Source: JAWOFN01 sp046497505 [NCBI: bacterium] (GTDB lineage: Bacteria > Blakebacterota > Blakebacteria > Blakebacterales). From it: a stretch of DNA of 21,648 nucleotides. Below are positions 7,890 through 21,648 of the stretch, one piece after another (the stretch's first letter is position 1; every line of letters starts with the position of its first letter). The notes beneath the pieces were generated by a model. It was given only the letters and a program-made list of their open reading frames with translations. It had not been told where the DNA came from and ran no database searches. Location: positions 1 through 21,648 of the forward strand of contig JAWOFN010000072.1 of assembly GCA_046497505.1 (NCBI GenBank). The letters are read 5' to 3'. Both the position numbers and the translations under genes were made by a program.

Positions 7890-9002
7890 TCAGAAGGTCC
7901 GGCTCAGAGCCGGATCCTCATGGAATGTGCGCACTTCCAGCTCCCACGACCGCTCCCGCGCGGCCTCCCCGAGTGTCTCCGCCAGGCGCTCGACCCCCGG
8001 CTGTTCCGAAGCCCGATGACCCGGGTCGACGCAGACCATCCGGCCGGTGTGCTCCAGCAGGTCGTGATACTTCAGGTCCCCCCCCACGAAGAGCTCGGCA
8101 CCCCGAGCATGGGCAGGGGCGATGAGTCCGCTCGCGCTCCCGCCGGCCACCGCGACCGTCCCCACCTCACCACCTTCGGGCCCGGTCACACCCAGGGGCA
8201 CCCAGAGCAGTGCCTCCTTCAATCTGTTCAGGGCCTCTTCCAGGGGCAGAGGACGCTGCCAGTGTCCGATCACCCCCATACCGAGGGGGTCACCCTGCCG
8301 ATGTGATTCGAAGAGGTCATAGGCCGCTTCGTCGTAGGGGTGTGCCTCGAAGAGCGCCTCGAGCACCCTGTCGATGTGCCCCTCCTCCACCCGCATCTCC
8401 AGGCGTTCCTCGGTCGCCTCTTCCAGCCGGTCCACCTCTCCTGCCATCGGTTCGGCCCCTTCCTGGGGTCGGTACGTCCCTCTGCCGCTCGCCGTGAAGC
8501 TGCATTCGGTGTAATCGCCGATCTCCCCGGCCCCGGCGGCTGCGAGGGCGTTCCGGACCGCCTCGAGATGTCCGCCGGGCACGAAGGTCACCAGCTTGTA
8601 GAACCCGGCCTCGCCATCCGGTGCCAGGATCCGCTGCCCCTCCAGTCCGATCAGGTCGGCGAGGGCGCCGCTCACACCGTCCAGGTGCCGGTCCGCACAG
8701 GTGTGGGATGCCAGCAGGCCGATCTCGGAGGCGAGCAGGCCGGCGGTCATCCGACCGATCCGGTCATCCGGGTCGAGGCCGCGGATGTGCGGGAAGTAGA
8801 GGGGATGATGGGTGAGGAGGAGCTGCGCGTCCCAGGAGCGGGCTTCCTCCAGGGCGGCTTCCGAGGGGTCCAGAGCGACCAGACAGCGGGAGATGGGGCG
8901 CGTGCCCCGGACCTGCCAGCCGCTGTTGTCCCAATCGTAGGCCGTGTGGAAGGGGTATCGGGAATCCAGCGTTCCGTACACCTCCGCCGGCCCGGGGATC
9001 AT
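7890..9002 (-). CDS. Nif3-like dinuclear metal centre protein
   Basis: A 370-residue Nif3/DUF34 family protein, which forms hexameric toroids with a two-metal site in each subunit. Biochemical role is unsettled; some members act as GTP cyclohydrolase-like enzymes. Seen here: DWDNSGWQV (23-31), metal ligands in LLLTHHPLYF (His65, His66), HTCADRHLDG (His100, Asp104) and DPGHRASE (His329, Glu333). A central inserted YqfO/CutA-like domain spans about 135-235 (YKLVTFVPGGHLEAV to HPYDEAAYD). The frame is open to 9050, but codons above 9002 lie inside a terminator hairpin. The ATG at 9002 has GGGGGA nine bases upstream and starts the conserved domain. Confidence 0.9.
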   Translation of the reverse strand: MIPGPAEVYGTLDSRYPFHTAYDWDNSGWQVRGTRPISRCLVALDPSEAALEEARSWDAQLLLTHHPLYFPHIRGLDPDDRIGRMTAGLLASEIGLLASHTCADRHLDGVSGALADLIGLEGQRILAPDGEAGFYKLVTFVPGGHLEAVRNALAAAGAGEIGDYTECSFTASGRGTYRPQEGAEPMAGEVDRLEEATEERLEMRVEEGHIDRVLEALFEAHPYDEAAYDLFESHRQGDPLGMGVIGHWQRPLPLEEALNRLKEALLWVPLGVTGPEGGEVGTVAVAGGSASGLIAPAHARGAELFVGGDLKYHDLLEHTGRMVCVDPGHRASEQPGVERLAETLGEAARERSWELEVRTFHEDPALSRTF

Positions 9003-9024
9003 ATGCGCGAATCCCCCTGAAACG

Positions 9025-9049
9025 AAAAATGCACCCTGTCCCGGGTGCA
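9025..9049 (-). terminator. Intrinsic terminator upstream of nif3
   Basis: On the minus strand TGCACCC (9049-9043), loop GGGACA, GGGTGCA (9036-9030), then TTTTT (9029-9025): a perfect 7-bp GC-rich stem with a U-run. It lies only 22 bases before the nif3 start codon. It either ends the Ppx-side transcript or a small RNA, or acts as an attenuator controlling nif3. Confidence 0.7.
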
Positions 9050-9178
9050 CCTTCCTCGTGCTGCGATGTGGTTCTGAGGAGGTGTGACGGATCGGTTCTT
9101 CATCAAGTCTCGCGCTTGGGTCCCGCTGCTCGACACGCCCCCGGACCGGGCTGCCGGTGAGTCGCCCTCACAGCCTTT
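9025..9178 (-). ncRNA. Possible small RNA or attenuated leader between ppx and nif3
   Basis: About 150 bases with no plausible reading frame. On the minus strand a TTGACA box lies upstream at 9209-9204 and a strong intrinsic terminator ends the segment at 9025. A GC hairpin (9175-9149, with GTGAG paired to CTCAC) would form at the very 5' end. I compared it by eye with 6S RNA, SRP RNA, tmRNA and common riboswitch signatures and saw no match. A nif3 leader controlled by termination is an equally good reading. Confidence 0.3.
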
Positions 9179-9180
9179 TT
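9149..9180 (+). terminator. Terminator-like hairpin facing the plus direction
   Basis: On the plus strand GGCTGCCGGTGAG, loop TCGCC, CTCACAGCC, followed by TTTTT at 9176-9180. The stem has GTGAG/CTCAC and GGCT/AGCC with a small bulge. No plus-strand gene is visible before it, so it would stop antisense transcription or end a plus-strand small RNA. The U-run is absent on the minus side, so it does not terminate ppx. Confidence 0.45.
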
Positions 9181-9209
9181 AATGAGCTATCACAGGGACC
9201 GTTTGTCAA
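9179..9209 (-). promoter_or_regulatory. Candidate sigma-70 promoter in the 3' end of ppx
   Basis: A perfect TTGACA lies at 9209-9204 on the minus strand, inside the last codons of ppx. A weak -10 candidate, CATTAA, is at 9184-9179 with a 19-base spacer. A perfect -35 box in such GC-rich sequence stands out, but the -10 is poor. It would drive the 9178-9025 segment. Confidence 0.3.
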
Positions 9210-10191
9210 CGCCCTGTTCCTCCTCCGGTGGCCAGGGATGTCCCTCCTCCCCGATGGTGCGCAGCAGCCCGTCCATGAGGCCGGTACGCGGAAGCCGCAT
9301 GCTGGGAGAGCCCACACGCACCGCCAGCGCCCGGTAGAGGGCCGCAGCACCGGTGAGCATGGGTGCCCGGTCGGCAGGGATCCGAAGACCTTCCAGGATC
9401 TCGGGCGGTGTCCCGGCAAGCCGCTCGTAGAAGGTATCGAAGGCATCCAGCGGCGCACCGTCCCGGGTGGAATCCGCCGCCGACCACATCCCCCACTGCT
9501 CGGCGAGCAGGTCCAGCATGGCGGCCTGTCCGCCGACGAACACGACCGGCGCACCTTCGGGTGCGTCGTCCAGGATGGCCGAGTCGAGTCTCTCACCGAT
9601 CCGTGCGGCTTCCTGCCCCAGTCCCCGGCGGACTTCCTCCCCCGCCACCCGCTCTGCAAGGAAGGACTCGAACCGTGCGGCCAGGCCCAGGGCGTGACTC
9701 TCCAGGAGGGGTTCCTTCCCCTCCCCCCGGTCGAGGATCAGGTCGAGACTGCCGCCCCCCAGATCGACCACGAGCGGGGGCGCCCCCTCCAGATCCCCCA
9801 GCTCAGCGCGTACGGCGACCAGTACCAGGCGTGCCTCCTCTTCGGAAGAGATGGTCTCGATCCGGATGCCGGCGGCTTCCCGTACCCGTTCTGCGGCCTC
9901 CTCATGATTCGCCGCCCTGCGAAAGGCCTCGGTGGCCACCGAGCGGTAGCGCGTGACGTCCTGGCCGTACATGGCGGAGGCGAAGGCGGCCATGGCCCCC
10001 TTCAGCCTTTCGATGGTCTTCTCCGAGAACCGTCCCGTATCGAACGCGTCGTTGGCCAGCCGCAGGGTCGAACGTCCCGCATCGATCTGCTCGAACTCCC
10101 CCTCCCCGGCGGGCTGAACGATCTGCAGACGCAGACTGTTGGAACCCAGATCGAGGCCCGCCCATACCTTGCTGTTCTTATCCGGTCCCAT
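9190..10191 (-). CDS. Ppx/GppA family phosphatase
   Basis: A 333-residue protein of the exopolyphosphatase / guanosine pentaphosphate phosphohydrolase family (ASKHA fold), which hydrolyses polyphosphate or pppGpp in the cytoplasm. Phosphate-binding motif 1 is GLDLGSNSLRL (12-22) and motif 2 is VVDLGGGSLDL (141-151). Family sequences VATEAFRRAAN and ISSEEEARL lie between them. It is the short, two-domain form without the C-terminal HD extension of E. coli Ppx. The ATG at 10191 is 14 bases inside the end of the MOSC gene. The longer open frame above it is out-of-frame MOSC sequence. Which substrate it prefers cannot be told. Confidence 0.88.
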   Translation of the reverse strand: MGPDKNSKVWAGLDLGSNSLRLQIVQPAGEGEFEQIDAGRSTLRLANDAFDTGRFSEKTIERLKGAMAAFASAMYGQDVTRYRSVATEAFRRAANHEEAAERVREAAGIRIETISSEEEARLVLVAVRAELGDLEGAPPLVVDLGGGSLDLILDRGEGKEPLLESHALGLAARFESFLAERVAGEEVRRGLGQEAARIGERLDSAILDDAPEGAPVVFVGGQAAMLDLLAEQWGMWSAADSTRDGAPLDAFDTFYERLAGTPPEILEGLRIPADRAPMLTGAAALYRALAVRVGSPSMRLPRTGLMDGLLRTIGEEGHPWPPEEEQGVDKRSL

Positions 10192-10666
10192 CGTCCCCGT
10201 CCGTTGCCGTCTCCACGAAGTGTACCGGCGCCCCGACGTGGATGACGCCCCCCTCCACGATCTCCCCGTAGGCGCCGCCGTGCCAGGCGGGGAAGAGGAG
10301 CTTCTGCAGGCCCGGTACCGCCTCGTCCATGCGTTCACAGGGCTTGAGTTCCCCGTTGATACGGATTCGGCAGCCCCCGACCTGCAGGACCCGTCCCCTG
10401 CTCTTCTTGAGGGGGATGCCGCGGACCAGGAGGTTGGCGCGCCGGACCGAAGGGTCGGCTTGCACATGCAGGCGGCGCATCATCTCGTCCCAGACCTCCT
10501 CCTCCAGGAGTGTGATCTGGCGCCGACCGCCCTGGTCGGCACTGCCGGCCAGGCCCTGCCCCGGCACCAGTTCCCCCTCCTCCACCCGGTCCATGGGACC
10601 ACGGTGGAAGCGCTTCACGTAGATGGCCCTCAGCGTCGCCCGTCCCTTCCTCCCTCCGTCCGCCAT
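10178..10666 (-). CDS. MOSC domain-containing protein
   Basis: A 162-residue stand-alone MOSC domain, a beta-barrel found at the C terminus of molybdenum cofactor sulfurases and in YiiM/mARC-like proteins that handle Moco or reduce N-hydroxylated compounds. Seen here: RRQITLLEEE, the RRANLLVRGI motif (75-84), the conserved Cys110 in NGELKPCERMD and the closing GAYGEIVEGGVIHVGAPV (131-148). The start is ATG one base after the acetyltransferase stop (TGA-G-ATG), and its 3' end overlaps ppx by 14 bases. Given a Mo-cofactor gene (moaA) and a molybdoenzyme elsewhere in the window, a Moco-related role is possible but not proven by proximity. Confidence 0.85.
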   Translation of the reverse strand: MADGGRKGRATLRAIYVKRFHRGPMDRVEEGELVPGQGLAGSADQGGRRQITLLEEEVWDEMMRRLHVQADPSVRRANLLVRGIPLKKSRGRVLQVGGCRIRINGELKPCERMDEAVPGLQKLLFPAWHGGAYGEIVEGGVIHVGAPVHFVETATDGDDGTG

Positions 10667-12198: not shown

Positions 12199-12275
12199 TG
12201 GTGGGCCCACCAGGGATCGAACCTGGAACCTGCGGATTATGAGTCCGCTGCTCTAACCAGTTGAGCTATAGGCCC
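12199..12275 (-). tRNA. tRNA with anticodon CAU, probably tRNA-Ile2
   Basis: A complete 77-nt cloverleaf with encoded CCA: acceptor GGGCCTA / TGGGCCC, D arm GCTC-AACTGGTTA-GAGC, anticodon stem GCGGA / TCCGC with loop CTCATAA, T arm CCAGG-TTCGATC-CCTGG, discriminator A. The anticodon CAU fits elongator Met or Ile2. Pairs C4-G69 and C5-G68 are the acceptor-stem features used by E. coli TilS to recognise tRNA-Ile2, so Ile (lysidine-modified, reading AUA) is favoured. It is not the initiator: position 1 pairs with 72. Confidence 0.93.
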
Positions 12276-13345: not shown

Positions 13346-16300
13346 CTACTTGCAGGGCAGGAAGCGGATCGTGTTCTCCATCTCCTCCAGCACGTCCTCC
13401 AGGGCACCGATGGTGTGGTCGATATCCTCCTCGGTGGTCTCGGCCGAGAGGGAGAAGCGCACCGAGCAGTGGGCCTGTTCGGTGGTCCGCCCCATAGCCA
13501 GCAGGACATGGGGCGGATCAGGGGAACCCGCCTTGCAGGCCGAGCCCGAAGAAAGGGCCACCCCGTAGCGGTCCATGGCCACCACCACCGACTCCCCCCG
13601 GATGTCGGGGAGGCTCAGGTTGAGGGTGTTGGGGAGCCGCCGCGTGGGGTGCCCGTTCCGGATCGCATCCGGGAGCAGTTCGAGCACGCTCGCCTCCAGG
13701 CGGTCCCTGAGGTCTGCGATGCGCTGCCGCTGCTCAAGGTTCATCCGGCGCCGGGCCCGTTCGGCGGCCTTGCCCATCCCCACAATGGCGGGGACGTTGT
13801 GGGTGCCGGCCCGAAGGCCCCCCTCCTGCTTGCCGCCGTGGATGAGGGGTTCCAGCTCCACCCCCCGGCGCACGTAGAGGGCCCCGATCCCCTTCGGTCC
13901 GTGGAACTTGTGTCCGGAGATGCTCAGCAGATCCACCCCCAGCTCGTCCACGTCCACCGGGATCTTCCCCACCGCCTGGACCGCATCGGTGTGGAAGAGC
14001 ACATCCCGCTGGCGGGCAAGGGCCGCCAGCTCGGTGATGGGCTGGATCGTCCCCACCTCGTTGTTGGCCATCATCACCGAGACCAGGATCGTCTCGTCGG
14101 TGAGGGCGACCTCCAGGCCTGAGGGGTCGAGCATGCCGTCCGAGTCCACCTCCAGGAAGGTGACCCGGAAGCCGCTCCGCTCCAGCCACGCCGCCGCGTT
14201 CAGGATGGCCGGGTGCTCGATGGTGGAGGTGATGATGTGGTCGCCCCGGTCCCGGAGGGCATCGGCCACCCCCTTCAGGACCAGGTTGTCCGACTCCGAG
14301 CCCCCTCCGGTGAAGAGCACCTCCCGGGGCCGGGCGCCGATGAGGGCCGCCAGCTGCCGCCGGGCGTCCTCGGTGGCCTCCTTCGCCTTCCGGCCCACCT
14401 CGTGGAGGCTGGAGGGATTGCCGTGGGCCTCGGTGAAGAAGGGGAGCATGGCCTCCCTCACCTCGTCGGCGGTCCGGGTGGTGGCGTTGTTGTCCAGGTA
14501 GACCCTGCGGACGGGCTCCTTCGGCTCCCGGACCGGGGAGGTCAGCCCCTTGTAGGGCTCGGCCCGCTCGGTGGGGGTGATCCCCTCCCCCGCCCCGTCC
14601 TCGAGCTTGCTGACCTCGCAGAGGAGGGCCTTGTAGACCGGGAAGCCTGAGATCTCGTCGTAGGCCTCAAGGTCGGTGAGCTCGTTCACGTTCCGGTCCT
14701 GCCACGCCTTCGGGCCCACCGGCGTGCCGCCCCCCTGGTTGGCCTCCACGCAGCCCGGGGCGATGTCGTCGGTGACCACGGCCCGGAAGGGCACGGCGCC
14801 CCGGGGGGTGCGGAGTTCCACCAGGTCGCCGTGGGCGATCCCTCGTTCCTCGGCGTCCCGGCGGTTGATCTCCACCACCGGCTCCGGATGGTCGCTCACC
14901 AGCCCGTCGATCCCGTGGTGCTGGGAGCGGAAGTCGGTCTGGATCCGGGCCCCGGAATTGAAGACCAGGGGGTAGTCCTTCGCCAGGCGGGGGGAGCCCA
15001 CCGGACCCTCCCGCGGCTCGACGTACTTCGGAAGGGGCTCGTAGCCGTAGTCCTCCAGGGTGGTGGACCAGATCTCGAACCTGCCCGTGGGGGTGTCGAA
15101 GCCGGGCTCCCCGTCGGGACGCAGCCCCCCCTTCTCCCACTTGCGGTACTCCATGGCCCCGGAGGGCTTCTTGACCCAGCCCCCGGCCTCCCGGACCTCC
15201 TCCAGGGTGTAGCCGGAGCCCTCCAGCGCGTGCCGGACCATGGCCTCCTCGATCTGGGGGAAGCGGTCCCCGTAGCCCAGGCGCCGGGCCAGCTCGGCCA
15301 TGATGAGGTAGTCGTTCCGGGCCTCCCCCACCGGCTCGATGACCTTCTCCCGCAGGCGGAAGATGGGCCCGTACGTCATGTAGCTCTGGATCTCGAACAT
15401 CGTCGTGGCCGGCAGGACGATGTCCGCATAGGCGGCGTCGGCCGTGAGCTGCCGGTCGATGGTGACCAGGAAGTCGAGTCCCTCCAGCGTCTTCCGCCAG
15501 ATGGGGGTCTGGGGCCAGGAGGTGAGGATCGAGGCCCCGTGGATGATGAGGGCCCGGATCGGGTACGGATCCCCCTCCTGGACCGCGTCCACCAGGCCGC
15601 TGGCATGGGACTCACCCCGGTAATGGCTGTAGAGCGGGAATCGGTCCCGGGCGGCGGCTCGATCGAGATCCGGGTTGGGGATGTTCGTGGAACGGTTGAT
15701 GGGGAAGTGGGAATCCCGCATGGCCAGGCCGATCCCTCCCGGCACGTCCAGCTGCCCGGCCAGGGCGAAGAGGGTGTGCACGGCCCGGACGGACTGCAGG
15801 CCCGTATCGGAGTACTCCAGCCCCGTGTACATCACCGGGGCGGCCCCGTCGGAGCGGGCGATGCTCCGGGCCAGGCGACGGATCGTATCCGCGGGCACCC
15901 CGGTGATCACCTCGGTCTGCTCAGGCGTGAAGTGCTGGGTGTAGGTCGTCAGCTCCTCGAAGCCGTGGGTCCACTCCTCGGCGAAGGTGATGTCGTAGAG
16001 GTCCTCTTCCACCAGGACCCCGATCATGCTCAGGGCCAGGGCACCGTCGGTGCCCGGCCGGATGGGGACCCACTCCGCCCCGGTGCGGTGGACAGTCTCG
16101 GTCCTGCGGGGATCGATGACCACGATCTCGGCTCCCCGGGAGGCCGCTGACTCCAGGCGCTCCATGTCCAGGGGGGGCGAATCGGTGGCGGGGTTGGAGC
16201 CCCAGACCAGGAGGGTCTGGGCGTTCTCGATGTCGGTGAACATGTCCACCAGCATCCGCCCCATGGTCAGGTGGGGGGCCATCATGGCGAAGGAGACGTA

Positions 16301-16789
16301 GCAGAGGGCCCCCACCCCCATGGTGTTGGGGCTCCCGAAGGGGAAGAGCACGTTGGAGGCAGAGGAGACGGCCACCCCCTCGGGCTGGTAGAAATCGCAG
16401 AGGGAGAGTTCGAAGGCCCCCCGGCCGGTGTAGATGGCCACCGCCTCGGGTCCCGATTCCGCCTTGATGGCTTCCAGACGCCCCACGATCTCCTCGTACG
16501 CCTCGTCCCAGGTGATGCGCTCGAACTCGTGGGTCCCTTTCGGGCCGGACCGGCGCATGGGATGCTTCAGGCGGTGCTCGGAATGGACGATCTCCGGGGC
16601 GTGCTCTCCCCGGCGGCAGATCATGCCAAGCGGGTGGGTGGTGTCGGCCCGGATGCCCGTGAGCCGTCCCTCCTCCACCTGCACCTCCACCCAGCAGCCG
16701 GCGGGACAGATGCCGCAGAGGGCCTGCTTCCATCCCCCCTCATCTGGCGGCACGGAGGAGGGCTCTGGGGCGGAGGAGGGGAGGGACAT
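13346..16789 (-). CDS. Fusion: molybdopterin oxidoreductase - cysteine desulfurase
   Basis: One 1147-residue frame with two whole enzymes. Residues about 20-730 are a DMSO-reductase-family molybdopterin oxidoreductase: 4Fe-4S ligands Cys25, Cys28, Cys32 and Cys58 (CGICPAGCW, MICRRGEHA), a likely Mo-ligand Cys163 in GSPNTMGVGALCYV, LLVWGSNPATDSPP, VVIDPRRTETV, and a C-terminal dinucleotide-binding domain ending ISGFPVYKALLCEV. The Cys ligand groups it with thiosulfate/polysulfide-reductase- and Nap/Fdh-like enzymes; it lacks the Cys-His pair of formate dehydrogenases. A roughly 30-residue linker leads to a complete NifS/IscS-type desulfurase (from VYLDNNATT, about 763): His859, Asp935, PLP Lys961 in SGHKFHGPKG and active-site Cys1085 in SSGSACKAG. 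No Tat signal is present, so it is cytoplasmic. ATG at 16789 has AAGGA six bases upstream. Substrate is unknown. Confidence 0.93.
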   Translation of the reverse strand: MSLPSSAPEPSSVPPDEGGWKQALCGICPAGCWVEVQVEEGRLTGIRADTTHPLGMICRRGEHAPEIVHSEHRLKHPMRRSGPKGTHEFERITWDEAYEEIVGRLEAIKAESGPEAVAIYTGRGAFELSLCDFYQPEGVAVSSASNVLFPFGSPNTMGVGALCYVSFAMMAPHLTMGRMLVDMFTDIENAQTLLVWGSNPATDSPPLDMERLESAASRGAEIVVIDPRRTETVHRTGAEWVPIRPGTDGALALSMIGVLVEEDLYDITFAEEWTHGFEELTTYTQHFTPEQTEVITGVPADTIRRLARSIARSDGAAPVMYTGLEYSDTGLQSVRAVHTLFALAGQLDVPGGIGLAMRDSHFPINRSTNIPNPDLDRAAARDRFPLYSHYRGESHASGLVDAVQEGDPYPIRALIIHGASILTSWPQTPIWRKTLEGLDFLVTIDRQLTADAAYADIVLPATTMFEIQSYMTYGPIFRLREKVIEPVGEARNDYLIMAELARRLGYGDRFPQIEEAMVRHALEGSGYTLEEVREAGGWVKKPSGAMEYRKWEKGGLRPDGEPGFDTPTGRFEIWSTTLEDYGYEPLPKYVEPREGPVGSPRLAKDYPLVFNSGARIQTDFRSQHHGIDGLVSDHPEPVVEINRRDAEERGIAHGDLVELRTPRGAVPFRAVVTDDIAPGCVEANQGGGTPVGPKAWQDRNVNELTDLEAYDEISGFPVYKALLCEVSKLEDGAGEGITPTERAEPYKGLTSPVREPKEPVRRVYLDNNATTRTADEVREAMLPFFTEAHGNPSSLHEVGRKAKEATEDARRQLAALIGARPREVLFTGGGSESDNLVLKGVADALRDRGDHIITSTIEHPAILNAAAWLERSGFRVTFLEVDSDGMLDPSGLEVALTDETILVSVMMANNEVGTIQPITELAALARQRDVLFHTDAVQAVGKIPVDVDELGVDLLSISGHKFHGPKGIGALYVRRGVELEPLIHGGKQEGGLRAGTHNVPAIVGMGKAAERARRRMNLEQRQRIADLRDRLEASVLELLPDAIRNGHPTRRLPNTLNLSLPDIRGESVVVAMDRYGVALSSGSACKAGSPDPPHVLLAMGRTTEQAHCSVRFSLSAETTEEDIDHTIGALEDVLEEMENTIRFLPCK

Positions 16790-16795
16790 CGGCAT

Positions 16796-16806: not shown

Positions 16807-17856
16807 TCATCGCAGGTCGCCAAGGACCTCGCGCAGGTCGGCGGAGGCCAAGGTCCGGGGACGGGGCCTTCCCCGGTCATCCGGCCACTGCACGAGTCGG
16901 ATACGGCCCTCGGTGATCTCGATGCCTGTGATCTCACCGTCCGCGAAGGAACAGCAGCCGGTGTTGAAATAGCAGGGACAGAGAGGGCGCAGCAACTCGT
17001 CCATCTCGTAGAAGCGATGGCGCTGTCCCGCCCGCACCCACTCCAGGTCCGCCCGCTCCCGGGCCAGCTCCTGCATGTCCACGTCCCGGTCCTCGCGATT
17101 GATCTCCAGGCCGGCACGCATCGCCTCCACGTTCTCGTGCATGAGGAAGACCGGTTTGTGGGTATGACCGGCGATGAGGGCCATGCCCGGGTGGGTGCGG
17201 GCCCAGAGATACATGGCGATGTTGTGGCGCTTGCGGAGCCTGTTGTCGGTGGCGGGGGTGCTGGACGGTGTGCGGCTGAGCCTCTTGTAGGGGCGCCAGA
17301 AGGTACGCACGAACCATCGGGTCTTCTTCCCGTGCCGGTCGCTCCAGAACTCCCCCTGGTGCCCGTGGGCCAGGAAGAGCGTGCCCACTTCCTTCCCTTC
17401 CTCCTCCACCACCAGCCGGAGGGCCTCCCGGACCTCGATCCCCCGCTTGTAGGCGGGCCGCAGGAGTTCGTCCACCGTCCGGGGATCGCTCCACAGGTCG
17501 TCGTGGTTCCCCCAGTAGCGATAGAGGACGCCGCGGGCGAGGAACTGCTCCTCCAGGGCGAGCGTCTCGGGGTAGGTCTCCATGACCTTGCGGGGATCAT
17601 GGCCCCACAACTCTTCCACGTCCCCCAGGAGGTGGAGGTCGTAGCCCTGCTCCAGATAGTAGCCGAGCGCGGCACAGTAGGCCTGCTCGCACAGGCGGAA
17701 GTCGTCGGTCTTGCCGCGCAGGCCACGGTGGTGGTCGGAGAAGATAACCAGGTGGAGGTCCTCGAGGTCCCTTCGGACCTCCTCCGTCTCCGCGCCTTCC
17801 CAGGCCCGCTCCATGCCCCGGGCAATGTTGCGCTGGTAGCGTGTGCTGTCGTCCAT
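16807..17856 (-). CDS. Calcineurin-like metallophosphoesterase
   Basis: A 349-residue cytoplasmic metallophosphoesterase with the full two-metal motif set: FSDHHRG (39-45, DxH), LLGDVEELW (77-84, GDxxE), YWGNHDD (114-120, GNHD), FLAHGHQGE (161-169) and AGHTHKP (229-235, GHxH). The DHHRG and GNHDD forms recall LpxH-like or diadenosine-tetraphosphatase-like branches, but it is longer than LpxH and has extra regions (170-225 and 245-349). The natural substrate is unknown. The ATG has AGGGA six bases upstream. It lies 84 bases after moaA and 17 bases before the fusion gene, so co-transcription with the fusion is very likely. Confidence 0.88.
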   Translation of the reverse strand: MDDSTRYQRNIARGMERAWEGAETEEVRRDLEDLHLVIFSDHHRGLRGKTDDFRLCEQAYCAALGYYLEQGYDLHLLGDVEELWGHDPRKVMETYPETLALEEQFLARGVLYRYWGNHDDLWSDPRTVDELLRPAYKRGIEVREALRLVVEEEGKEVGTLFLAHGHQGEFWSDRHGKKTRWFVRTFWRPYKRLSRTPSSTPATDNRLRKRHNIAMYLWARTHPGMALIAGHTHKPVFLMHENVEAMRAGLEINREDRDVDMQELARERADLEWVRAGQRHRFYEMDELLRPLCPCYFNTGCCSFADGEITGIEITEGRIRLVQWPDDRGRPRPRTLASADLREVLGDLR

Positions 17857-17940: not shown

Positions 17941-18954
17941 TCAGCCCCCCAGGCGTATCATCTCGATCTTGTCCCGACCGGCGGGATCGTAGCCGGTCTC
18001 CGACTTCATGGCCTCGCAGCGCTCCTCGGAGTAGCGATCCACACGTCGGGACCAGACCCCTCGGATCGCATCGGCGATCTCCTGGTCCGTGGCTCCCCCC
18101 CGGAGCAGTCCCCGGAGATCGAACCCCGCGGCGGCGAAGAGACAGGTGACCAGGGTGCCCTCCGCGGTGAGTCGGGCGCGGCTGCAGGCGCCGCAGAAGG
18201 GTGCGGTGACGCTGGCGATGACCCCTACGCTTCCCGAGCCGTCCTTGAAGCGGTATTCGGCGGCGGGGGCCCGGGGGTCCTCCCGCACGGCGGCTTTCAG
18301 GGGATGCTCGGCCGCGATGGCCGCCAGGATCTCCGCCCCGGGCACCAGCCCCTCCGAAACCCAGTGGTTGGCGTTGCCCACGTCCATGTACTCGATGAAC
18401 CGGGCCTGGAAGCGGTTCTCACGAGCGAAGTCCAGGATCTCCAGGACCTCCTCGTCGTTGACGCCCCGCCTGATCACCGCGTTGATCTTGACCTCCTCGA
18501 AACCCGCGTCCCGTGCGGCCATGAGGCCGGACATCACATCATGGAAATCCCCCCGGCGGGTGATCCTCCGAAAGGTCTCTTCCCGCACCGTGTCGAGGCT
18601 GATGTTCAGGCGGTGCAGTCCCGCCTCCCTCAGCGGTCCGGCGAGCCTGCCGAGCAGGGCACCGTTGGTGGTCAGGCCCAGGTCCTCGATGTCGGGCAGG
18701 GCGGCCAGCATGGCCACCAAGTCCTCGATCTCCGCCCGCACGAGGGGTTCCCCTCCGGTGAGGCGGAGCCGGGAGACCCCCAGAGCGGCGAATACCGCCG
18801 CCAGCCTGCGGATCTCCTCGAAGCGGAGGATCCGGCTGCGGCGGACCCACTCGTAGTGGTCCAGGGGCATGCAGTAGGAACAGCGGAAGTTGCATCGGTC
18901 GGTGACCGATATCCGCAGGTCCCGCAGAGGGCGGCCGAGCGTGTCGTTCAGGAC
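17941..18954 (-). CDS. moaA: GTP 3',8-cyclase MoaA (no canonical start codon)
   Basis: Radical-SAM enzyme for the first step of molybdenum cofactor synthesis, GTP to 3',8-cyclo-GTP (with MoaC giving cPMP). Numbered from GTC at 18954, the SAM cluster ligands are Cys21, Cys25 and Cys28 (DRCNFRCSYCMP), the SAM-binding motif is LTGGEPLV (65-72), the C-terminal cluster is Cys254, Cys257 and Cys271 (FCGACSRARL..VTC), and the essential terminal Gly-Gly ends the 337-residue protein. The first ATG (18870) comes after all three SAM cysteines, so it cannot be the true start. No ATG, GTG or TTG lies in frame between it and the nfuA stop. A strong GGGGAGG (18968-18962) sits seven bases before GTC and ten before CTG. 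Start is therefore GTC/CTG or a base error for GTG. Confidence 0.9.
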   Translation of the reverse strand, partial: VLNDTLGRPLRDLRISVTDRCNFRCSYCMPLDHYEWVRRSRILRFEEIRRLAAVFAALGVSRLRLTGGEPLVRAEIEDLVAMLAALPDIEDLGLTTNGALLGRLAGPLREAGLHRLNISLDTVREETFRRITRRGDFHDVMSGLMAARDAGFEEVKINAVIRRGVNDEEVLEILDFARENRFQARFIEYMDVGNANHWVSEGLVPGAEILAAIAAEHPLKAAVREDPRAPAAEYRFKDGSGSVGVIASVTAPFCGACSRARLTAEGTLVTCLFAAAGFDLRGLLRGGATDQEIADAIRGVWSRRVDRYSEERCEAMKSETGYDPAGRDKIEMIRLGG

Positions 18955-18970: not shown

Positions 18971-19549
18971 TCAGTCGGCGCTCTTGCTTGCGTAGTAGGG
19001 GTCCGTACCGGCGGCGTGGTCGGTGGTGTCCACCACGTCCTCTATCTCCGGAACCTCCTCGCGGATCTGGGCCGCCACACCCTCACGGAGCGTGGTGTCG
19101 ACCATCCCGCACCCCTGGCATCCTCCGCCGAAGCGGATGTAGGCCACACCCTCCCGTACCCCCGTCAGGCTCACGAAACCGCCGTGCATGCCCACCCCGG
19201 GGTTGATGCGTGTGTCGATGACCTCCTGGACCGCGTCGGCCAGGGGGTCGGCCCACCCCGCGTTGGGGTTGTCGATCTGGAACCCTCGACGCTGGAGGTC
19301 GTTCACGAAGTCGACGGTCGTGCCCTCCATGTTCCCGGCACTCCGTTCATCGAGCACGGCCTTGAAAGACCCTGCATCCACCTCCATGTCCTCCTCCCGG
19401 CGGTCCTCCTCGGCCACGAAGGCCATGTCGTACTGGAATCCCTGGGGTCCCCGACCCACCAGGGCGATGCGGAGGACCAGGTCGTCCCGGTCCTGCTGTT
19501 CCATGAGACGCTCGATCTCCTGCCGTGCTTCCTCCGTGAACGTGATCAC
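18971..19549 (-). CDS. nfuA: Fe-S biogenesis protein NfuA
   Basis: A 192-residue iron-sulfur carrier. Residues 1-95 are a degenerate A-type (IscA/HesB-like) domain (VITFTEEARQEIERLMEQ, FQYDMAFVAEED) lacking the A-type cysteines, and about 105-185 are a NifU C-terminal domain with the cluster-binding Cys144 and Cys147 in FGGGCQGCGMVDTTL. This is the classic NfuA architecture, which passes 4Fe-4S clusters to client enzymes. The frame is open to 19651, but GTG at 19549 has GGAG seven bases upstream and starts the conserved domain. It precedes moaA by only 16 bases; MoaA (two 4Fe-4S clusters) and the molybdoenzyme fusion are plausible clients in the same operon. Confidence 0.93.
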   Translation of the reverse strand: MITFTEEARQEIERLMEQQDRDDLVLRIALVGRGPQGFQYDMAFVAEEDRREEDMEVDAGSFKAVLDERSAGNMEGTTVDFVNDLQRRGFQIDNPNAGWADPLADAVQEVIDTRINPGVGMHGGFVSLTGVREGVAYIRFGGGCQGCGMVDTTLREGVAAQIREEVPEIEDVVDTTDHAAGTDPYYASKSAD

Positions 19550-19607
19550 GTCACTGCTCCGTTGCGTCGTGTGCTGTGTGATTCTTGACCTTCGGGTCCC
19601 CTGGAAA

Positions 19608-20074
19608 CTAGGGACTCTCCCCGCCCGGTGCAACCCGGGGTCGGGACACATGATGAGGGTGCGACCGGCGCCCGCCTACGGGAGCCAGTACGACCTCTTC
19701 GAAGAGGACGTCCGGTGCCACCACGCTGATGGGGATCCCATCGCCGGTCCGGCCGTCCATCCGGATCTCCCAGGGGTGCCCCCGGGGCCCGAAGACCTCG
19801 TGGAAAAACACGCCCGCCGATCGGTTCAGGAGGATGGCCGGGCCGGTGTACGGTTCGGTGAGGGGGGCTTCCCGGAGCTGCTCCAGGTCCCGGACCCGTC
19901 GATCCAGGTCGCGGTCCAGCTCGACCTCCATGATACGGAGGATCCGCCCCGGGTCCGCCGGCGGTTGGAGGGAGGGGTGTCCGGAGGGGGAGGCAGCGAC
20001 CCGCACGGGAAGCAGACAGGCCAGCCCGAGCAGGAGCAGGCCGACCCGGCCGCCGGTCGTGCGCGATCCTCTCC

Positions 20075-20078
<4 letters not shown>
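19608..20078 (-). CDS. Internally deleted TldD/PmbA-like remnant
   Basis: A 156-residue frame with a Sec signal peptide ([18 protein letters not shown]). Its parts match a secreted TldD/PmbA metallopeptidase in order but with large gaps: [15 protein letters not shown] (42-56, usual mature start), [20 protein letters not shown] then [17 protein letters not shown] (61-97, zinc-site region), and [22 protein letters not shown] (117-138, usual C-terminal end). TldD-type proteins are about 450-550 residues. The zinc motif HExxxH is broken: His93-Glu94 remain but Pro98 replaces the second His. It starts at GTG overlapping the rpoD stop (GTGA). It is probably a decayed gene kept in frame, though a new function for the short secreted protein cannot be excluded. 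Confidence 0.65.

Positions 20079-21648
<1,570 letters not shown>

Follow-up and report, generated by a model that had tools for sequence, protein, structure and literature searches.

Introduction

Metallopterin-dependent ergothioneine synthase (MES) was described by Beliaeva and Seebeck as a fusion of a molybdenum-type metallopterin module with a cysteine desulfurase, represented by CaMES from Caldithrix abyssi (JACS Au 2022, PMC9516567). In that work, four MES homologues form the antioxidant ergothioneine in E. coli. CaMES depends on desulfurase activity, on the pyridoxal phosphate (PLP) lysine, on both Cys1074 and Cys1135 and on Cys153, which binds the metal, and loss of Cys1097 has a two-fold cost. 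Sulfur transfer takes place within one chain and the metal step is reversible. CaMES with an inactive desulfurase makes no net product, yet its metal centre still swaps sulfur between ergothioneine and N-alpha-trimethylhistidine (TMH), and sulfur is therefore a substrate of each turnover. The Mo(VI)=S catalytic cycle, with oxidative C-S bond formation on trimethylhistidine, is the authors' proposal. According to the abstract, MES homologues are encoded exclusively in anaerobes. A review (PMC10903977) repeats the description. We analyzed a stretch of 21,648 nucleotides (the window) of contig JAWOFN010000072.1 from a Blakebacterota genome, which carries a gene with both modules in one frame. A sequence-only reading of this DNA had not recognized the architecture as a described one; it was published and tested as MES in 2022. 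The window protein is a further member of this known family, and its gene very probably encodes an MES working as described for its relatives.

Domain structure of the fused protein

On the reverse strand, a single open frame begins with ATG 16795, closes with the stop codon at 13346 and encodes 1149 residues. Its parts are as follows.

13346-16795, reverse strand: MES-like gene, ATG 16795, 1149 codons (alternative ATG 16789, 1147 codons), assigned by Pfam and orthology
14576-16732, reverse strand: N-terminal metallopterin module of the bis-molybdopterin guanine dinucleotide (bis-MGD) type, about residues 22-740, assigned by Pfam and by sequence and fold match to 2E7Z
14507-14590, reverse strand: linker, about residues 736-763, no stop codon
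13349-14503, reverse strand: C-terminal cysteine desulfurase module, residues 765-1149, assigned by Pfam and NCBIfam

The in-frame ATG 16789, two codons downstream, would give a protein of 1147 residues. It may be the true start, since AGGA is found 6 nt before it. Residues are counted here from ATG 16795, and Cys1085 of the sequence-only reading, counted from ATG 16789, is Cys1087. A promoter and terminator scan of the DNA gave signals about equal to those of shuffled sequence.

Four Pfam families match the protein, all above their curated cut-offs: Molybdop_Fe4S4 (residues 22-72, 31.2 bits), Molybdopterin (75-504, 134.4 bits), Molydop_binding (617-723, 71.8 bits) and Aminotran_5 (765-1126, 288.8 bits). 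Molybdopterin, Molydop_binding and Aminotran_5 are thus present in one chain, as the earlier reading had it. Against the NifS equivalog TIGR03402 the desulfurase half scores 520.8 bits, just below the cut-off of 530.75. Judged from its residues, it should work in the manner of NifS and IscS.

The closest solved structure to the Mo module is acetylene hydratase (2E7Z), both by sequence and by fold (24% identity in the fold match). The same enzyme is named for CaMES in PMC9516567. A fold search recovered just the two expected folds, with 2VPW also among the Mo matches. The predicted structure of the whole protein has a mean pLDDT (predicted local distance difference test) of 77.8 and a pTM (predicted template modeling score) of 0.59. 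The pLDDT drops below 50 in several stretches, located near the metal-ligand region, in the persulfide loop (1086-1090) and in the C-terminal tail. Linker residues 736-759 form a low-confidence stretch, and the relative placing of the two modules in the prediction is unreliable.

Catalytic residues and proposed mechanism

All nine functional residues named in PMC9516567 have counterparts in the window protein. Their conservation was assessed in an alignment of 36 fused rows, including the window, and seven unfused rows. The residues are listed below with a further cysteine, Cys133, that the alignment revealed.

16616-16717, reverse strand: Fe4S4 cysteines C27, C30, C34 and C60 (CaMES C14, C17, C21 and C48)
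16397-16399, reverse strand: Cys133, conserved cysteine specific to the fusion (C in 34 of 36 fused rows, one X, one gap)
16301-16303, reverse strand: Cys165, the predicted sole ligand of Mo/W (CaMES C153; C in 35 of 36 fused rows, the other with a gap)
13907-13909, reverse strand: Lys963, PLP lysine (CaMES K952; K in 36 of 36 fused rows)
13535-13537, reverse strand: Cys1087, persulfide cysteine (CaMES C1074; C in 36 of 36 fused rows)
13466-13468, reverse strand: Cys1110 (CaMES C1097; C in 35 of 36 fused rows, the other with S)
13352-13354, reverse strand: Cys1148, relay cysteine and next-to-last of 1149 residues (CaMES C1135; C in 35 of 36 fused rows)

The single gap at Cys1148 belongs to locus L018, whose frame ends differently. 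With every Pfam module above cut-off and all nine published residues matched, the claim that both halves look catalytically complete holds. As a proxy for CaMES we used L081, a locus of the Calditrichia class (genome G070) whose residue numbering fits CaMES. Its ATG frame encodes 1136 residues, and the positions of all nine functional residues coincide with those published for CaMES. The protein shares 59% identity with that of the window. The numbers do not all fit L076-L080 of the same class.

By homology, we infer that the window protein uses TMH and shares the mode of action of CaMES. The C-terminal PLP desulfurase would move the sulfur of L-cysteine onto Cys1087, and the persulfide would be relayed to Cys1148 in the C-terminal tail. 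From there it would pass to the metal centre, Mo or W bound by bis-MGD and held by Cys165. The imidazole C2 of TMH, supplied by EgtD, would attack the terminal sulfido ligand. Ergothioneine would then depart, and the reduced metal would be re-sulfurated by the next persulfide. To this scheme we add Cys133, perhaps an intermediate stop between Cys1148 and the metal. It is invariant in a 34-row alignment, and its position in the seven unfused rows is occupied by K in six and W in one. These patterns make it a candidate for the last stop of the sulfur relay.

The sequence-only reading had offered two functions for the fusion. In the first, the desulfurase sulfurates its own Mo centre. FdhD partners IscS in supplying sulfur to formate dehydrogenase, and the fused protein might replace this pair, as a formate dehydrogenase or similar enzyme that sulfurates its own cofactor once. 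The Cys ligand and the bis-MGD fold are in line with such an enzyme, and transfer of sulfur from a desulfurase to a Mo cofactor is a common theme (PMC9516567). However, the formate dehydrogenase alpha family TIGR01591 was rejected at 286.7 bits, far below its cut-off of 666.25, and in CaMES sulfur is consumed in each turnover. We regard self-maturation as very improbable. What stands of the proposal, by homology, is that the tethered desulfurase feeds the Mo centre; a one-off maturation does not.

In the second function, the Mo site acts as a persulfide, polysulfide or thiosulfate reductase and forms H2S from the persulfide on the desulfurase. The nearest characterized Mo modules do include PhsA (257.5 bits) and polysulfide reductase (2VPW), but the cut-off of the PhsA family NF012032 is 694 bits and a PhsA identity was rejected. 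Nine window proteins scanned with Pfam include no NrfC- or NrfD-type partner, as the earlier reading had also noted. Reduction would leave the association with EgtD described below unexplained, and the published chemistry is an oxidative C-S bond formation. There is hardly any chance that the protein is such a reductase, and we discard this part of the earlier reading in favor of MES.

Fusion in relatives

One genome per species was scanned with the Mo half, which yielded 65 loci (numbered with L): 44 fused-type close relatives, seven unfused homologues (49-52% identical) and 14 distant loci (27-31% identical). The scan used six short peptide patterns drawn from the window protein alone and is therefore no full census.

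One stop-to-stop frame spans the Mo half and the desulfurase in 39 of the 44 close relatives. The fused loci come from Gemmatimonadota, Acidobacteria, Neomarinimicrobiota, Latescibacterota, Gammaproteobacteria, Nitrospirae, Methanomicrobiales and others, and the 39 include chromosome-level records. One of them, L036, has a frame break within the Mo half. The five loci without an intact junction comprise three that stop at contig ends (L017, L025 and L037), one whose junction is masked by a run of unknown bases (L020) and one that diverges into other sequence past the Mo half (L040). In none of the five is the linker interrupted by a clean stop followed by a restart, and the window itself reads through 14500-14620 without a stop. 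In a plasmid collection, 1779 records match the query, none with a single place covering at least 80% of it, and this collection thus yielded no example of the architecture on a plasmid.

An assembly or binning artefact that joined two genes was also considered, and nothing in its favor was found. It is contradicted by the in-frame junction in 39 loci of many phyla, some at chromosome level, and by the grouping of the fused proteins in trees of both halves (below). We rejected it, and its probability is negligible. The fused frame is neither a chance event nor an artefact of the window.

Association with EgtD

Genes of the EgtD type, which encode a histidine methyltransferase, adjoin the fused gene in relatives and led to the identification as MES. 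Such a gene is close by in 18 of 44 loci, within about 500 bases in 17 and about 2.2 kb upstream in L028; in L038 it is on the opposite strand. These neighbors were called by Pfam PF10017 on the L019 gene and by BLAST clustering with that gene for the others. In L010, L012 and L015, where EgtD is close, the Mo halves are 70-72% identical to that of the window.

At the genome level, the EgtD family PF10017 is matched in 39 of 44 fusion-bearing genomes. The matches are only partial in L007, L023 and L030 and in two pieces in L026. In the 21 genomes whose Mo homologue is unfused or distant, two partial matches of 24-26 bits exceed the cut-off and a third falls below it; these genomes belong to other taxa, so lineage is uncontrolled in this comparison. 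Among 40 genomes of the class of G003, EgtD is present in 11 of 11 with a match above 500 bits versus 11 of the 29 others (Fisher p 3e-4, uncorrected for relatedness). The match is near full length in one frame in six of the 11 (G070, G081, G085, G086, G087 and G093). It is partial or broken in G003, G074, G083, G103 and G104, with G103 containing the desulfurase half only.

Phylogeny and the sulfur acceptor

For the Mo half, a quick tree was built from 59 rows with seven of the 14 distant loci as outgroup, and it carries a long-branch warning for the distant rows. Broken or partial loci (L020, L025, L036, L037 and L040) and one under the length limit (L048) were left out. The 45 fused rows form one clade, with a support of 95 in the Shimodaira-Hasegawa-like approximate likelihood ratio test (SH-aLRT). 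This clade contains two subclades, 24 rows with the window (SH-aLRT 99) and 21 rows with L081 (SH-aLRT 96). In a tree of the desulfurase half, 42 fused rows are split from nine standalone desulfurases of one class (100), which fits a single fusion. The fused proteins are kept together in both trees.

Several observations weigh against the assignment of the window protein as MES. It is in a different subclade from L081, and the four tested MES enzymes may all lie outside its subclade. There is no EgtD among the window genes, so that the link to EgtD is drawn from relatives. The nearest relative in the Mo tree, the Candidatus Eisenbacteria metagenome-assembled genome (MAG) L035, has no EgtD match. 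The same holds for L001, itself a single-contig chromosome, and for L022, L025 and L036. Among 14 control genomes, E. coli and Methanosarcina acetivorans likewise contain a PF10017 match, and the family by itself is no proof of ergothioneine. In addition, given the claim that MES is confined to anaerobes, it counts against the assignment that 14 of 18 counted genomes in the window's subclade match the heme-copper oxidase family PF00115 at 389 bits or more.

These points raise the question of whether the window's subclade uses the same relay and Mo centre to sulfurate another acceptor, such as another histidine betaine or another heterocycle. The separate subclade and the lack of an EgtD match in L035 and L001 would agree with this. 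So would the unfused sister branch, which adjoins a different methyltransferase in six of six Desulfobacteraceae-type loci; acceptors may therefore vary in the wider family. However, an EgtD match is present in 16 of the 18 genomes counted for the window's subclade, and four of its members (L010, L012, L015 and L038) have EgtD close to the gene. Another acceptor is unlikely on this evidence, and TMH is preferred. A broader scheme appears similarly improbable, in which the window's subclade, frequent in genomes with heme-copper oxidases and in part without an EgtD match, uses an acceptor other than trimethylhistidine, and MES is one branch of a wider Mo-dependent family of C-S bond-forming enzymes. 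The unfused Desulfobacteraceae branch, next to its Trm112-type methyltransferase, would be a further branch of that family.

Oxidases and EgtB in host genomes

PF00115 is matched in 30 of the 44 carriers; some of the matches are partial, and 25 of the 30 score at least 389 bits. The family also takes in nitric oxide reductases. TIGR02891 (CtaD/CoxA, cytochrome oxidase subunit I) is over its strict cut-off in 13 of 44 carriers. Three single-contig chromosomes (L004, L006 and L008) carry MES, EgtD and a PF00115 match of at least 397 bits on one sequence, which excludes a binning error for them.

The 14 of 18 genomes given above for the window's subclade compare with 8 of 20 in the L081 subclade, and TIGR02891 at 560 bits or more is found in 12 of 18 versus 6 of 20; the thresholds were chosen post hoc and the comparison is descriptive only. 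The counts omit L020, L025, L036, L037, L040 and L048, of which L020, L036 and L040 have PF00115 matches of at least 389 bits.

EgtB (TIGR03440) is over its cut-off in three of 44 carriers, L013, L016 and L039, with weaker matches below the cut-off in 26 further genomes. L016 is a named isolate, Thiorhodococcus minor DSM 11518; the other two are MAGs. EgtB and EgtD adjoin in L016 and L013. The three genomes combine the O2-independent and the O2-dependent route.

Oxidase genes are not proof of aerobic growth and the carriers are mostly MAGs, yet the many carriers with a heme-copper oxidase match sit badly with exclusively anaerobic hosts. This observation is possibly new, as is the position of the unfused sister branch next to another methyltransferase. 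Literature searches by enzyme name found three papers, and one aimed at MES in aerobic hosts found no title on the subject. The 2022 paper explains the enzyme itself, and the remaining value of the finding is in its distribution. If it is true, the O2-independent ergothioneine route does not mark an organism as anaerobic, and the view of a simple replacement by the aerobic route should be re-examined. The window's subclade may deserve attention for its hosts.

Neighboring genes and unfused relatives

Other features in the window are listed below.

20075-21556, reverse strand: RpoD gene
18971-19651, reverse strand: NfuA-like Fe-S carrier upstream of moaA, A-type and NifU domains, below the NfuA equivalog cut-off
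17941-18951, reverse strand: moaA, two genes upstream of the fused gene (TIGR02666, 372.3 bits, cut-off 284.05)
16807-17856, reverse strand: metallophosphoesterase-like gene (Pfam just below cut-off), upstream, ending 11 bases before the fused frame
12199-12275, reverse strand: tRNA-Met (CAT)
10178-10666, reverse strand: MOSC-domain protein, downstream of the fused gene

MoaA carries out the first step of molybdenum cofactor synthesis, and its gene is a supporting neighbor of the fused gene, not a part of the enzyme. Its start is uncertain: no ATG, GTG or TTG keeps the N-terminal radical-SAM cysteines, and the TIGR02666 alignment begins at a CTG. The NfuA-like and MOSC-domain genes both suit an Fe-S and molybdenum setting. 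For the window's RpoD, a search of 25 carrier genomes gave the highest-scoring full-length matches in Candidatus Eisenbacteria (L035, 52%) and Latescibacterota (L006, 50%); identity is higher over shorter stretches in some other genomes. The DNA probably stems from an uncultured lineage close to these two. Elsewhere, in L001 (7237-7800) and L004 (7283-7837), a gene for a MobA-like NTP transferase (PF12804 on L001) is located immediately upstream of MES in divergent orientation, which fits the bis-MGD cofactor.

Six loci from Desulfobacteraceae and relatives (L041-L045 and L062) encode an unfused Mo module, 49-52% identical, with the Cys ligand kept. The gene is at about 7980-10196 (882-3110 in L044), and the L042 protein is from Desulfonema magnum. 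All six also contain a gene for a Trm112p and SAM-methyltransferase protein (by clustering, with Pfam on L041 and L045), and no desulfurase was found in these loci. Perhaps they represent a further case in which a Mo enzyme transfers sulfur, here with a methylated metabolite as acceptor. In the Spirochaetaceae locus L046 (5053-10127), an unfused Mo homologue directly follows two MTTB-type methyltransferases (PF06253, 293 and 322 bits). Since the MES reaction is reversible, it is possible that this homologue helps to break down ergothioneine or a betaine.

Comparison with known enzymes

The window protein resembles the MES of the 2022 paper in the order of its two modules, the nine residues, the next-to-last relay cysteine, the nearness to 2E7Z and, in relatives, the link to EgtD. 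It differs in its 59% identity to L081, its subclade, the lack of EgtD in the window and the frequent heme-copper oxidase matches among its relatives. Acetylene hydratase likewise has an Fe4S4 cluster and a bis-MGD cofactor with a Cys ligand (PMC9516567). Unlike the window protein, it contains no desulfurase module and catalyzes a hydration.

The same paper names EanB and EgtB as enzymes that lead from TMH to the same product. Both are unrelated to MES: EanB is rhodanese-like and uses polysulfide, and EgtB is an iron- and O2-dependent sulfoxide synthase. In the IscS and formate dehydrogenase system and in the Moco (molybdenum cofactor) sulfurase ABA3, a desulfurase hands sulfur to a Mo centre as in MES (PMC9516567). 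There it is a step of maturation, whereas in MES sulfuration occurs in every turnover and within one chain. The desulfurase residues of NifS and IscS are shared by the window protein, which adds to them an N-terminal Mo module and an extra C-terminal relay cysteine.

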